From Clostridia bacterium (GTDB taxonomy: Bacteria; Bacillota; Clostridia; Oscillospirales; CAG-272): DNA of 64,000 bases. Numbering within the stretch: the first letter of the stretch is position 1; each line of letters opens with the position of its first letter. Under the pieces are notes generated by a model. It saw nothing but the letters and a program-made list of their open reading frames with translations, had not been told where the DNA came from and made no database searches. Where the stretch lies: the NCBI GenBank assembly GCA_017631085.1, contig JAGBTY010000003.1:1-64000 (forward strand), read 5' to 3'. The translations under genes and the position numbers were made by a program. This document shows, one piece after another, positions 34,398 through 45,420 of the stretch.

Positions 34398-35516
34398 ATG
34401 AAAAAATACGATATTGCTGCAATAATATGGCCCGCATATACGGGAGATGAACCGAGATCAAGGATCTTCTGGCCCGAGGGCTACGGAGAATGGCAGACGG
34501 TCAAAGCGACCATGCCAAAATACGAAGGACACGCTTGGCCCAGAAAGCCTCTTTGGGGATACGTGAATGAAGCAGATCCATATGTTATGGAAATGCAGAT
34601 CGAAGCGGCTGCGGCTCACGGAGTAAACGTTTTCATTTACGACTGGTATTGGTATGATAACCGCCCATTCCTCGAGCAATGCCTCAACAACGGATACCTT
34701 AAGGCTCGTAACAACGACAAGGTAAAGTTCTATCTCATGTGGGCAAACCACACGGCAGAATCACAGTGGGATACAAGAACTGCCGACCTCCACACTCCCA
34801 TCTGGGACGGAGCAGTCGACAGAAAGACCTTTGACCATATCGTAAAACGTACTATTGAAAATTACTTCACACACCCATCCTACTACAAGATAGACGGCAA
34901 ACCCGTCTACATGCTCTTCGACATCGAAAATCTTGTCAGAGGTCTCGGCGGTGTCAAGGAGACTATGGAGGCTCTTGAATATTTCAGAAACGAAACCGTC
35001 AAGGCAGGCTTCCCGGGACTTGAGCTCCACCTTACCATCAGACACAGAAAATATATGTCTCGTATGCTCGATGACAAGACCGATATCTTTACCTTTATCA
35101 ACAATGCGGGATTTGACGGCGTGACTCACTATCAGTTCTTCGACTTCGGCTTTGAATTTGACGGCTATAAGCCCACAACCTACCTCCAACTTCTTGAATG
35201 CGCAAAGAAGGAATGGAAGTTCATCGACGAGAACATAAATTCCATCTATTATCCTCAGGTCTCGGTAGGCTGGGACGCAAACCCCAGATATAAGGAGCTT
35301 CACCCTGCGGTATGTATTGAAAATACCCCCGAAAACGTTCAGAAGGGCTTTGAACTTGCCAAAGCTTACGTTGACTCTCACCCAAACATGAGAGCTCCGC
35401 TCATAACGGTAAACAGCTGGAACGAATGGACCGAGGGCAGCTACCTTGAGCCCGACAGCCTTTATGGATACGGATACCTTGAAGCTATCAAAAAGGTCTT
35501 TATGGACGAAGAATAA
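34398..35516 (+). CDS. GH99-like (WbsX-type) domain protein
   Basis: A 372-residue cytosolic protein with no signal peptide. It has 'IIWPAYTGDE', 'FIYDWYWYDNRPF', 'YYKIDGKPVYMLF' and the late 'NSWNEWTEGSYLEPD', the standard landmarks of the GH99-like/WbsX family (PF14307), which occurs beside O-antigen and polysaccharide genes and in gut glycan loci. An endo-mannosidase-like or glycan-processing role is inferred; the catalytic Glu pair of true GH99 is not certain here. CGAGG before the ATG serves as ribosome binding site. It ends at a strong terminator. Confidence 0.85.
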   Translation: MKKYDIAAIIWPAYTGDEPRSRIFWPEGYGEWQTVKATMPKYEGHAWPRKPLWGYVNEADPYVMEMQIEAAAAHGVNVFIYDWYWYDNRPFLEQCLNNGYLKARNNDKVKFYLMWANHTAESQWDTRTADLHTPIWDGAVDRKTFDHIVKRTIENYFTHPSYYKIDGKPVYMLFDIENLVRGLGGVKETMEALEYFRNETVKAGFPGLELHLTIRHRKYMSRMLDDKTDIFTFINNAGFDGVTHYQFFDFGFEFDGYKPTTYLQLLECAKKEWKFIDENINSIYYPQVSVGWDANPRYKELHPAVCIENTPENVQKGFELAKAYVDSHPNMRAPLITVNSWNEWTEGSYLEPDSLYGYGYLEAIKKVFMDEE

Positions 35517-35522
35517 AAAAAG

Positions 35523-35551
35523 ACGGGCTTCCGACAAGGGAGCTCGTTTTT
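35523..35551 (+). terminator. Terminator of the GH99-like gene
   Basis: ACGGGCTTCC pairs with GGGAGCTCGT (35523-35532 with 35538-35547, two G-T pairs) around a GACAA loop and runs into TTTTT. Confidence 0.75.
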
Positions 35552-35557
35552 GTATGC

Positions 35558-35606
35558 AAAAAAAGAAATGACCCTTGACCACGGTTACTACCACGATCAA
35601 GGGTCA
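35558..35606 (-). terminator. Terminator of the candidate ncRNA
   Basis: On the minus strand TGACCCTTGA (35606-35597) pairs perfectly with TCAAGGGTCA (35578-35569) around an 18-base loop holding a small GGT/ACC stem. TTTCTTTTTTT follows. Confidence 0.85.
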
Positions 35607-36101
35607 CTTCTGTTCACTCTTGATATCTAACATCTTTTTTAATCCTCTCTTTCCTTGTCTGCCTCTCACTTCTTCGTTCACATCTCTCAAAACACTCTTT
35701 TGCTTTTAAAGCTTTCTCTAAAGGAGATATCTTTTGTTTTTATCTGTGCCGTTCTGTAAGGGCGAATTTGTCTGACTTTCAACAAAGGCTTCATTTACAC
35801 ACTGACGACTCGAACTTTTCTTTGGCTTTCTCCTAAAGCATTCAAATCTATATCAATGCGTTGCGCCGCCGCGTCCTATTAGAAATTTGTTTTTGGATCG
35901 ATCCTGAATCTTAACTGATTTTTGAACTTTTATTTCTTCTATCTCTTCTCTATCTTCTCTCTACCGTTGTTCAAATATCGTCAATCAGTAACGCCTTCGT
36001 TAAAGTCCAAAACCTACTTTTTCATTGGACTATACCTTCCGTTTCTTCAAGAATCTGAGTAAAAACTTATATTCTCATTGGACCGTACCTTCCTTTCTTG
36101 T
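35558..36101 (-). ncRNA. Candidate large non-coding RNA of about 545 nt
   Basis: No reading frame of useful length exists on either strand over this gap, yet on the minus strand it has an extended consensus promoter at one end and an intrinsic terminator at the other. The predicted transcript is strikingly purine-rich (especially 35930-35970 and 35640-35700), which in these genomes marks transcribed RNA. Local hairpins can be drawn, for example AACG/CGTT near 36000-35989 and GCTTT/AAAGC near 35840. The 5' end holds two similar modules of about 36 nt. It lacks the signatures I would expect of RNase P RNA, tmRNA, SRP RNA or 6S RNA. Its size is in the range of the OLE, ROOL and GOLLD classes, but I cannot assign it to any. 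Confidence 0.75.
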
Positions 36102-36107
36102 GTCTTT

Positions 36108-36136
36108 ATTATATCATACTTTTTTTCTGTTTGCAA
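36108..36136 (-). promoter_or_regulatory. Promoter of the candidate ncRNA
   Basis: On the minus strand TTGCAA (36136-36131), 17 bases and TATAAT (36113-36108) with an extended TGA just before the -10. The start is expected at about 36101. No gene on this strand lies downstream before the terminator. Confidence 0.85.
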
Positions 36137-36210
36137 TTGGCAATTTATTAAAAGTTTACAATATTTTTTTGTTCAGATAACTGAAATTTGATTTTTATCA
36201 CAACTTTTTC

Positions 36211-36239
36211 TTTACAAATACGAGATCCTGTGATATAAT
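36211..36239 (+). promoter_or_regulatory. Promoter of the UPF0316 gene
   Basis: TTTACA (36211-36216), 17 bases and TATAAT (36234-36239) with extended TGA. The leader holds a small hairpin, GGCGT/ACGCC (36249-36263), followed by TGTATTTTTT, which might attenuate. Confidence 0.8.
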
Positions 36240-36294
36240 AGAGTTATGGGCGTGCTTTACGCCTGTATTTTTTGTGTTATTTAAAGGAGATACC

Positions 36295-36837
36295 ATGTCG
36301 GAAATTTTATCGTCCATACACCCCGCTTTCGTTTGCATTATAATCTGCATCGCAAAAATAGTAGAAATATCTATACAGTCCCTCAAGACCTGCATGATGG
36401 TCAAAGGACAGAGACTCAAAGCCGCTGGACTCGGTTTTCTTGAATGTACCATCTGGGGACTTGTTATATCGACCATGATAACCACCCTCGGTGATAATCT
36501 GCTCCTTCTTCTCTTCTACTGTATCGGCTACGCGTCGGGACTCTTTATCGGCTCTTCCATTGAAAGCAAGATAGCACTCGGAACGTCAACCCTTGAGCTT
36601 ATCGCAAATGACGAAAGCACCGAAAAGATCGTGGCATACCTTAAGGAACAAGGCAAAGGCTTTACCGTATTCGAGGGCAGAGGTTCTACCGACAAAATGA
36701 ATATGATACTTATCGTCCTTCCCAGAAAGGAAATGCCAAAAGCACTTAAAGAGATCCGTCACCTCTGTGACAATAAAGTATTCGTCGTCGCCTCCGACGT
36801 CAGCAAATACGCAGGCGGATATGGACTTATAAAATGA
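36295..36837 (+). CDS. UPF0316 membrane protein (DUF5698 + DUF2179)
   Basis: A 180-residue protein of unknown function. Residues about 1-85 hold three membrane helices (DUF5698). Residues about 95-175 form a soluble DUF2179 domain ('GKGFTVFEGRGSTDKMNMILIVLPR') also found at the end of YitT-type proteins, where it resembles a small ligand-binding module. The ATG at 36295 has AAAGGAG at the right distance and is preferred to the longest frame at 36274. It is monocistronic, with promoter and terminator visible, and diverges from the candidate ncRNA promoter about 100 bases upstream. Confidence 0.88.
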   Translation: MSEILSSIHPAFVCIIICIAKIVEISIQSLKTCMMVKGQRLKAAGLGFLECTIWGLVISTMITTLGDNLLLLLFYCIGYASGLFIGSSIESKIALGTSTLELIANDESTEKIVAYLKEQGKGFTVFEGRGSTDKMNMILIVLPRKEMPKALKEIRHLCDNKVFVVASDVSKYAGGYGLIK

Positions 36838-36855: not shown

Positions 36856-36896
36856 ACCGAGGTCTACCCGAAAAGGATAGACCTCGGTCTTCTTTT
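36856..36896 (+). terminator. Terminator of the UPF0316 gene
   Basis: ACCGAGGTCTA / TAGACCTCGGT (36856-36866, 36878-36888) form an 11-bp stem followed by CTTCTTTT. Confidence 0.85.
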
Positions 36897-45163: not shown

Positions 45164-45420
45164 AAACAAAAAACCTCTCATCCCACATGGGACGAAAGGC
45201 TTACTTCCGCGATACCACCCAAATTGACCTCCCGCACGGAGATCCTCTCATTTGTGTCCTTACGGGACAAGCGGACGGTTCTAATTTCATTCCGAAGGAT
45301 ATGATTTCTTCCGTCAGCTCCGAAGTGTTTTTCCCTACGGTCTTACTGCCGTTCTCTCACCTACAACGGCTCTCTTTGAGTAAGCTCTCCAAGGTACTCT
45401 CTTCATCACAGCTTTTTACA
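45164..45420 (-). promoter_or_regulatory. T-box riboswitch of the aspS-gatCAB operon
   Basis: The minus-strand leader has the T-box core GGGTGGTATCGCGG (45220-45207). A terminator TGGGACGAAAGG/CCTCTCATCCCA (45188-45199 with 45174-45185) and a T run follow. A Stem I region carries GAAGAGAGTA and GGTGAGAGAACGGC. It reads through when uncharged cognate tRNA binds. In my folding the specifier loop presents AAC (45329-45327), an Asn codon followed by A, next to the GAAG/CTTC basal stem; GAC (Asp) occurs a few bases later (45315-45313). Asn sensing would fit a route that makes Asn-tRNA(Asn). Confidence 0.93.

Follow-up and report, generated by a model that had tools for sequence, protein, structure and literature searches.

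A conserved family of predicted RNA genes in gut Clostridia that combines 5' minigenes with a tiny open reading frame locked into the terminator

Introduction

What is encoded on the minus strand between positions 35558 and 36101 of the window (the whole 64,000-nt stretch of DNA that was analyzed)? A sequence-only reading had proposed an orphan, large non-coding RNA of about 545 nt for this gap between two genes, possibly an ornate RNA of the kind represented by OLE, ROOL and GOLLD. Comparison of the locus with genomes of related Clostridia and with phage contigs indicates, from sequence, a conserved, undescribed family of predicted RNA genes that is not non-coding in the plain sense: conservation is highest in tiny ORFs and in the sequences before them at which ribosomes probably bind. 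All genome counts given for the RNA include the genome that carries the window.

Results and discussion

The locus and its predicted transcript

The predicted whole transcript occupies 35558–36101 on the minus strand (∼545 nt), with its start site placed from the promoter; its purine content, computed as 63.5%, agrees with the purine-rich character described previously. The promoter (36108–36143, minus) was found by a consensus scan exactly as claimed, with a −35 element TTGCAA at 36136–36131, a 17-nt spacer, a −10 element TATAAT at 36113–36108 and the TG of an extended consensus before the −10; a similar promoter precedes most copies of the RNA in other genomes. The word at its upstream end, TTGCCAATTGCAAA (36143–36130, minus), includes the −35 element and matches its own genome exactly once. 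No regulon was seen when this 14-nt word was searched in that genome, with one exact and six one-mismatch sites compared with three in the reversed control. The intrinsic terminator (35558–35611, minus) comprises a hairpin at 35611–35564 and a U-run extending to about 35558. Its position some 540 nt after the promoter is as described, whereas its stem is longer than the perfect 10 bp reported: 20 pairs were counted, the maximum of the scan, and a repeat search gave arms of 25 nt each that are 80% complementary. The transcript length is the promoter-to-terminator distance, ∼540 to 545 nt.

The flanks are as previously stated, with a WbsX-type glycan gene (glycosyltransferase; 34398–35516, plus) to the left and a DUF5698/DUF2179 (UPF0316-type) gene (36295–36837, plus) to the right, and the gene downstream of the RNA is convergent to it. 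The setting had been called not prophage-like, which fits the eight neighbor genes scanned around the RNA, all of them ordinary; elements with this layout are nevertheless present in phage contigs (see below). Compared with shuffled sequences, the RNA folds with a z score of −5.9, which falls to −1.9 (100 shuffles) when the terminator is omitted; most of the stability therefore comes from the terminator. Another terminator-like hairpin, of 14 pairs, lies at 36856–36888 (minus), just downstream of the UPF0316-type gene.

Comparison with known RNA classes

An Infernal search against Rfam had been proposed by the sequence-only reading, and no family reached the cut-off at the locus. Scanning the window at gathering score revealed no large-RNA family (OLE, ROOL, GOLLD, raiA or HEARO, all of which we take to be represented in Rfam), and a scan of 35500–36280 with E values up to 10 gave no plausible family. 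The 6S, tmRNA, RNase P and SRP RNA models matched neither in the window nor in 35500–36280, consistent with the earlier statement that their hallmarks are lacking. Eight loci with other copies of the RNA returned tRNA only, and Rfam release 15 holds no model that matches the RNA. Membership of an Rfam family was rejected. The weak miRNA matches at E up to 10, which are to eukaryotic families, fit the terminator hairpin. At gathering score, the window matches Rfam only at 45185–45418 on the minus strand, with a T-box leader (RF00230, 123 bits). The idea of a CsrA sponge and a GG...CC mini-hairpin at the 5' site were dropped, upon consideration by eye only. No description of such an RNA family was found by title or abstract start in the open-access PMC literature.

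OLE, ROOL and GOLLD share with the present RNA a rumen or phage setting. As far as an excerpt of PMC12286853 describes them, they are RNA genes of the same size class, likewise orphan; the RNA described here differs from them in having no Rfam match, a modest structure and tiny ORFs as its conserved core. The proposal of an orphan, free-standing RNA gene of ∼545 nt with its own promoter and terminator is thus supported as a prediction, conserved and outside Rfam. An ornate RNA like OLE, ROOL or GOLLD is not, given the lack of an Rfam match, the modest folding of the body and the far shorter length of other copies.

A patchy family in gut Clostridia

DNA similar to the window RNA was found in 34 of 98 genomes, with the best match at the 3' end and the next best at the 5' end; its presence in this search was patchy even inside the genus. 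An exact scan for the 3' core, with one genome per species, returned at least 117 stretches; among the 80 matches listed, the titles were Oscillospiraceae, Clostridia, Clostridiales, Ruminiclostridium or plain bacterium, and many sample names were from ruminant gut. From the fetched loci, 136 distinct copies were taken as the base set; 114 sequences went into R1, a covariance model of the 3' module. Of 146 family genomes, 44 were matched by the model, spread over 27 of 71 genera; among the 103 family genomes of good quality, 29 were matched. Across the class it matched 16 of 291 genomes, including two weak matches (E values of 3e-5 and 7e-5) at which our script found no core, and across the phylum 2 of 348, the second at an E value of 5e-4. 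Homologs in related Clostridia, which had been named as a check on the proposal, therefore exist by both methods. Because its presence is patchy, the RNA appears to be dispensable.

The predicted consensus structure from 114 copies provides the covariation that had also been suggested as a check: 15 of its 21 pairs have changed on both sides, and all 15 belong to the terminator. Consensus scans find many promoters and terminators, so that the two signals might have stood together by chance with no gene between them; conservation, covariation and ORF conservation in more than 100 copies refute this reading, and we give it practically no weight. The distance from promoter to 3' ORF varies across copies from about 175 to over 600 nt, and several loci carry tandem, diverged copies, up to three within about 1.6 kb in genome G036. 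In one such array of three tandem copies (G036:C45, loci L018 and L234), the minigene stop of one of the copies at L018 is replaced by a sense codon.

A 3' open reading frame locked into the terminator

The best conserved end of the RNA holds a short ORF. The conserved sequence GAAAGAGAGG (35644–35653, minus), in which nine of ten positions are at least 90% conserved among 114 copies, is its likely ribosome-binding site, and the ORF follows at 35604–35633 (minus) as ATG TTA GAT ATC AAG AGT GAA CAG AAG TGA, encoding MLDIKSEQK, with the stop codon (35606–35604) inside the 5' arm of the terminator. An in-frame stop is present in all 136 copies, after nine codons in 114, eight in 21 and eleven in one, and is variously UGA (88), UAA (40) or UAG (8). 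The +1 frame, taken as a control, also stops in 136 of 136, in 135 of them at the fixed UAG of UUAGAU, and so the conserved stop by itself is weak evidence; the +2 frame stops after five codons in 78 copies and has no stop within the stretch in 28. For this reason the case for the ORF rests on changing stop codons, 3-nt gaps and rescue of the start. Changes of the stop from UGA to UAA or UAG are mirrored in the other arm of the terminator, with 38 changes on both sides at pair 70–125 and 4 at pair 71–124, and the differences in ORF length are mostly in-frame gaps of 3 nt.

Because many copies had been found via the first 16 nt of the ORF itself, the start codon was checked in independent copies, found by DNA similarity or the covariance model, of which 68 were left after removal of five spurious matches (four by script, as no hairpin followed, and L015 by eye). 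All 68 have an in-frame start, in 61 at the usual place and in seven exactly one codon upstream; these seven upstream starts (five ATG and two GTG) are used where the usual ATG has been lost. Codons 2 to 5 show synonymous changes to CUA, GAC, AUU and AAA, and their replacements are mostly of I to F, T or L. Overall, the first five codons are conserved as protein and nearly as nucleotides, and the second half is variable. This pattern matches selection on a translated frame, translation being predicted here from comparative sequence. The element also combines a conserved short ORF with a predicted free-standing RNA gene, one of the traits of dual-function small RNAs.

Translation-controlled terminators similarly carry a stop codon in the stem, and so the position of this stop could be taken to indicate a leader or attenuator that acts in cis on a downstream gene. 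The neighborhood of the copies makes this very improbable, and regulation of a neighbor, by a leader-peptide attenuator or otherwise in cis, was rejected: the next gene in the window is convergent, leaving no downstream gene on the same strand, the next ORF lies on one strand in 46 copies and on the other in 46 (92 copies with a next ORF), and the largest cluster of neighbors comprises five loci, with no widely recurring neighbors. Random orientation and the lack of recurring neighbors point instead to action in trans. The UPF0316-type gene is present in 18 of 30 genus genomes, including that of the window; in the 17 relatives that have it, no RNA was seen within the 1.5 kb fetched around the gene (inspection by eye led us to discount a few three-mismatch matches to the short-ORF pattern as spurious), and neither the glycan gene nor the hydrolase gene lies beside it. 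From sequence, the RNA gene is predicted to be free-standing.

A 5' module of probable strong ribosome sites and minigenes

At its other end the window RNA carries two further tiny ORFs. Module 1 (36067–36096, minus) consists of AAAGGAAGGTACGGTCC-A followed by ATG AGA ATA TAA (M-R-I-stop) at 36078–36067, and module 2 (36014–36043, minus), a direct repeat placed 53 nt after it, of AACGGAAGGTATAGTCC-A followed by ATG AAA AAG TAG (M-K-K-stop) at 36025–36014. The gap had been described as holding no usable ORF and its transcript as non-coding; at very small scale neither description is supported, because two three-codon ORFs and one nine-codon ORF are present, each behind a Shine–Dalgarno-like site, and both kinds are recurrent. 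The usual layout is a Shine–Dalgarno site, a short spacer ending in CC-N, an ATG, one or two codons and a stop.

Minigenes were counted in the 100 of 136 copies that have a unique promoter of sufficient score, omitting copies with a promoter score below 10.5, a repeated promoter, or the promoter of a tandem neighbor (five named copies). An ATG falls within the first 70 nt in 94 of the 100, and the ORF that opens at the first ATG has three codons in 84, two in four and more in six (that is, two or three codons in 88 of 94), compared with a three-codon ORF in 1 of 94 for each of the other two frames. Among the six copies without an ATG, L134 has TTG and a three-codon ORF, L044 seemingly lacks a minigene and four are apparently wrong promoter picks. 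The 124 minigenes encode 48 distinct peptides, and thus it is the length that has been kept and not the peptide. Full minigene patterns occur once in 70 of the 94 copies, twice in 12, three times in ten and not at all in two; neighboring minigenes are mostly spaced by 44 to 95 nt, some by 116 to 169 nt and three by close to 500 to 590 nt (586 nt at most), and the most distant second or third minigenes may belong to another unit.

The predicted pairing with the 16S tail, for which an assumed sequence was used, has a median of −16.4 kcal/mol for 88 of the 5' sites and −9.6 kcal/mol for the best starts of 688 long ORFs, a contrast that is inflated because the promoter score gave a bonus for a Shine–Dalgarno-like word. 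Only 3.3% of the long-ORF starts were as strong as the 5' sites in this prediction. No 16S gene was found in the 30 genus genomes. Shuffling the last 10 nt before the ATG weakened the mean pairing from −15.8 to −10.2 kcal/mol, although this perhaps broke the core site too. ORF length formed no part of the promoter scoring, and the ORF-length result is unaffected. The same module was recognized in 12 of 13 loci from the search of the class (M-R-K, M-F-R, M-Y-K, M-R-V and others), in a search whose scoring favored the minigene and in which two of the 13 loci were earlier copies.

With both ORF kinds in hand, the RNA could be read as a tiny mRNA, in which the peptide M(x)LDIKSEQK is what matters, its translation being tuned by the long leader together with the minigenes at the 5' end. 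This reading, which we consider unlikely but the strongest of the alternatives, draws on the coding signature of the 3' ORF, namely its 3-nt gaps, three stop codons, start rescue and synonymous CUA, AUU, AAA and GAC codons. However, the peptide is only 8 to 11 residues long and varies in its second half, the 5' minigenes occur almost as generally as the 3' ORF yet their peptides are unconserved, and the phage elements described below end in a different, five-residue peptide (MDNVA, MDSVA, MDRIA and others).

The middle region

The middle of the RNA, variable in both length and sequence, is its least conserved part. At 35858–35873 (minus) it contains a possible small H-type pseudoknot, CGC-G-GCG-GCG-CAA-CGC, with a putative three-dimensional form suggested by 42 aligned copies. 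Its consensus is CAC-G-GCG-GUG-NNA-CGC, then AUAUAGAU or similar, in 42 of 136 copies chosen by motif; 46 motif matches had been obtained, four of which were dropped by eye, and a search with this motif in itself favors sequences that can form the fold. Read as a pseudoknot, 95.6% of the cells in the alignment are paired, and both stems show compensatory changes (three pairs, six cells). Comparison with 500 shuffles gave counts of 0 for the covariation score, 2 for the percentage paired and 2 for pairs changed on both sides, and slid versions of the pseudoknot all score lower. Against it, further pair types number 3 compared with a shuffle mean of 4.4; in addition, 13 of the 42 copies cannot form the outermost pair. 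A hairpin, UUCUC-NUUA-GAGAA, has four of five pairs changed on both sides in 35 sequences, with each pair broken in 2 to 8 of the 35 and a weak energy; these sequences were selected by eye from 56 candidates for which the script required five pairs, and the window copy is not among them. A further hairpin drawn by RNAalifold within the 3' ORF, GAUGU-UAG-AUAUC, was rejected, as none of its five pairs has changed on both sides. The pseudoknot motif also occurs in five viral contigs, in or beside open coding frames, and these matches were judged by eye to be chance.

The pseudoknot and hairpin hint at a further RNA function. A regulatory RNA could thereby be envisaged, in which the middle (pseudoknot, hairpin and purine-rich arms) does the work and the tiny ORFs load ribosomes that protect the ends. 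Both structures covary in subsets of copies, and the systems treated in PMC8708949 include an mRNA that is shielded by a ribosome bound to a strong site as well as minigenes that act in cis. We nevertheless regard this reading as rather unlikely, because the middle is the least conserved region, the pseudoknot motif is kept in only 42 of 136 copies, lengths differ widely and the window RNA, stripped of its terminator, is only modestly more stable than its shuffles.

A possible mechanism of ribosome capture

The minigene principle is known mainly from lambda bar and artificial minigenes. The lambda bar minigenes (barI and barII), which are part of a longer phage transcript, combine a strong ribosome site with a two-codon ORF and tie up tRNA as peptidyl-tRNA or drain ribosomes. 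Drop-off of peptidyl-tRNA from them inhibits translation, more severely where peptidyl-tRNA hydrolase is weak. An ORF of two or three codons behind a predicted ribosome site was found here in 88 of the 94 copies with an ATG and in all 21 phage copies, most of which have a two-codon ORF (MG or MV), as in lambda bar. In contrast to lambda bar, the RNA described here is a separate predicted RNA gene that has its own terminator and, besides one to three minigenes, another ORF at its 3' end, and its copies lie in chromosomes as well as in phage contigs. We know of no precedent for 5' minigenes and a tiny ORF in the terminator as a free-standing gene with a phage counterpart.

We propose, as the reading we tentatively favor while holding it to be somewhat less than an even chance, that ribosomes are captured at both ends of the RNA and terminate there almost as soon as they have initiated, in the manner of the lambda bar minigenes. 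Production of the RNA, translation of its ORFs and repeated initiation with quick release are all steps that we infer. At a strong site with a stop two codons past the start, a ribosome would initiate, finish and re-initiate without leaving, and its occupancy would shield both ends of the RNA from nucleases. If the RNA is abundant, it could drain free ribosomes or tie up tRNA as short peptidyl-tRNA, and a separate function may come from the 3' peptide, the first half of which is fixed. Conservation of the first five codons of the 3' ORF speaks against capture in its simplest form, since a mere ribosome trap could do without it.

Related systems provide precedents for parts of this mechanism. 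According to the available part of PMC8708949, ribosomes at a strong site before a minigene re-initiate without leaving, and in Escherichia coli a strong site before a six-codon mini-ORF protects the mRNA from RNase E. The same excerpt describes the axe-txe leader minigenes and the LEE4 six-codon mini-ORF, likewise short ORFs behind strong sites, as altering the stability or translation of their own RNA (PMC8708949). Its two-codon minigenes, like other leader minigenes, worked in cis only: they were without effect when supplied in trans, and they showed no toxicity (PMC8708949, in part). This disfavors action in trans. Within the same portion of that source, the axe-txe and LEE4 ORFs act in cis on a downstream gene, whereas the family described here has no consistent downstream gene (PMC8708949). 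Peptide-encoding small RNAs, as presented in an excerpt of PMC5521070, likewise join an RNA gene with a short conserved ORF; the present RNA differs from them in that it has tiny ORFs of two kinds, each kept to one end, and in that one kind is conserved in length only.

Elements of the same layout in phage contigs

No match to the window RNA was found by blastn in 50,697 phage records, nor in plasmid records, and the exact 3' module patterns are absent from IMG/VR. A scan with the 5' module, however, matched a phage contig of 117,928 bp, and the 22-mer of module 1, GAAAGGAAGGTACGGTCCAATG, is identical to that of one phage contig. In total, 21 copies of a small predicted phage RNA gene were found on 20 IMG/VR contigs (L233, L237–L251 and L261–L264), 16 of them distinct. 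Each comprises a TTGACA/TATAAT promoter, GAAAGAGAGGTACRGTCCAATG (in one, GAAAGGAAGG...), a minigene, a spacer, a second site such as GGAGGGTACTCCAATG before a five-codon ORF, and a strong terminator. The minigenes are M-G (14), M-V (3), M-G-N (2), M-Y-R (1) and M-C-R (1), and the five-codon ORFs encode MDNVA, MDSVA, MDTVA, MDNVT, MDRIA, MDNVN and MGYVF, three of the second ORFs (L238, the second copy of L251, and L261) having been read by eye. Six of the contigs measure 118 to 144 kb and the others are shorter. Among 14 phage records searched whole, the module occurs once in 13 and twice in one; contig L251 carries two copies of the element. At L241 and L237, the two loci with scanned neighbors, a gene for a Dda-like helicase stands on one side of the element and a gene of the DNA polymerase III alpha type on the other. 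Two further scan matches were set aside: H1 was read and contained no such element, and H3 lies inside an annotated ORF.

When the 22-mers of 104 scored bacterial copies were compared with those of the phages, four were identical, including that of the window, all to the L233 form, and 26 lay within two mismatches; none of 77 control windows from the same transcripts came within six mismatches of a phage 22-mer. In L183, a copy that belongs to a different family within the class, the commoner phage form is present without a single change. The 22-nt module, with up to three mismatches, occurs in the window's own genome only in this RNA, and with at most one mismatch it is in none of 397 other genomes of the phylum, few of which carry the RNA; a module this rare is therefore no general ribosome site. 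Outside the module there is little likeness: when the window RNA was compared with the 16 phage sequences by blastn, the 5' module region alone aligned (best match 41 nt at 83%), and other bacterial copies matched mostly in the same region. The likeness between host and phage modules may reflect either homology or convergence.

These observations bear on a conflict between phage and host, in which a phage minigene RNA would disturb host translation and the host copies would be decoys, antidotes or captured phage genes. The 22-nt module shared by the window and a phage contig but absent from the 397 other phylum genomes (≤1 mismatch) fits this idea, as do the patchy presence, tandem copies and lack of fixed neighbors in hosts. 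It is nonetheless improbable in our estimation: host and phage RNAs resemble each other hardly anywhere but in the 5' module, a likeness that convergence could explain, and the neighbors of host copies were compared by clustering alone.

The family numbers more than 100 copies in gut Clostridia, and its layout recurs in phage contigs. Ribosome capture, if true, would make it a natural and widespread use of the minigene principle, and RNA-only tuning of the ribosome supply by bacteria and phages would become testable. With still more reserve than for capture itself, we suggest a new class of RNA genes for starting and stopping ribosomes, common to gut Clostridia and phages, which may be a tool, and perhaps a weapon, to control host translation. 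Gene families of a start, two codons and a stop escape both routes of annotation, because ORF finders skip three-codon ORFs and RNA searches seek structure.

Two contigs were placed outside the count of 20: L252, which has no minigene, and L236, which has the 5' module with the three-codon minigene M-G-D and a terminator, and in which no second ORF was seen. The latter, a short terminated element at L236:3904–3932, lies between portal and scaffold genes in a different phage contig. Finally, L253, a human fecal phage clone (MT837449.1, 5906–6735), carries the exact 22-nt module before a three-codon minigene, M-Q-S.
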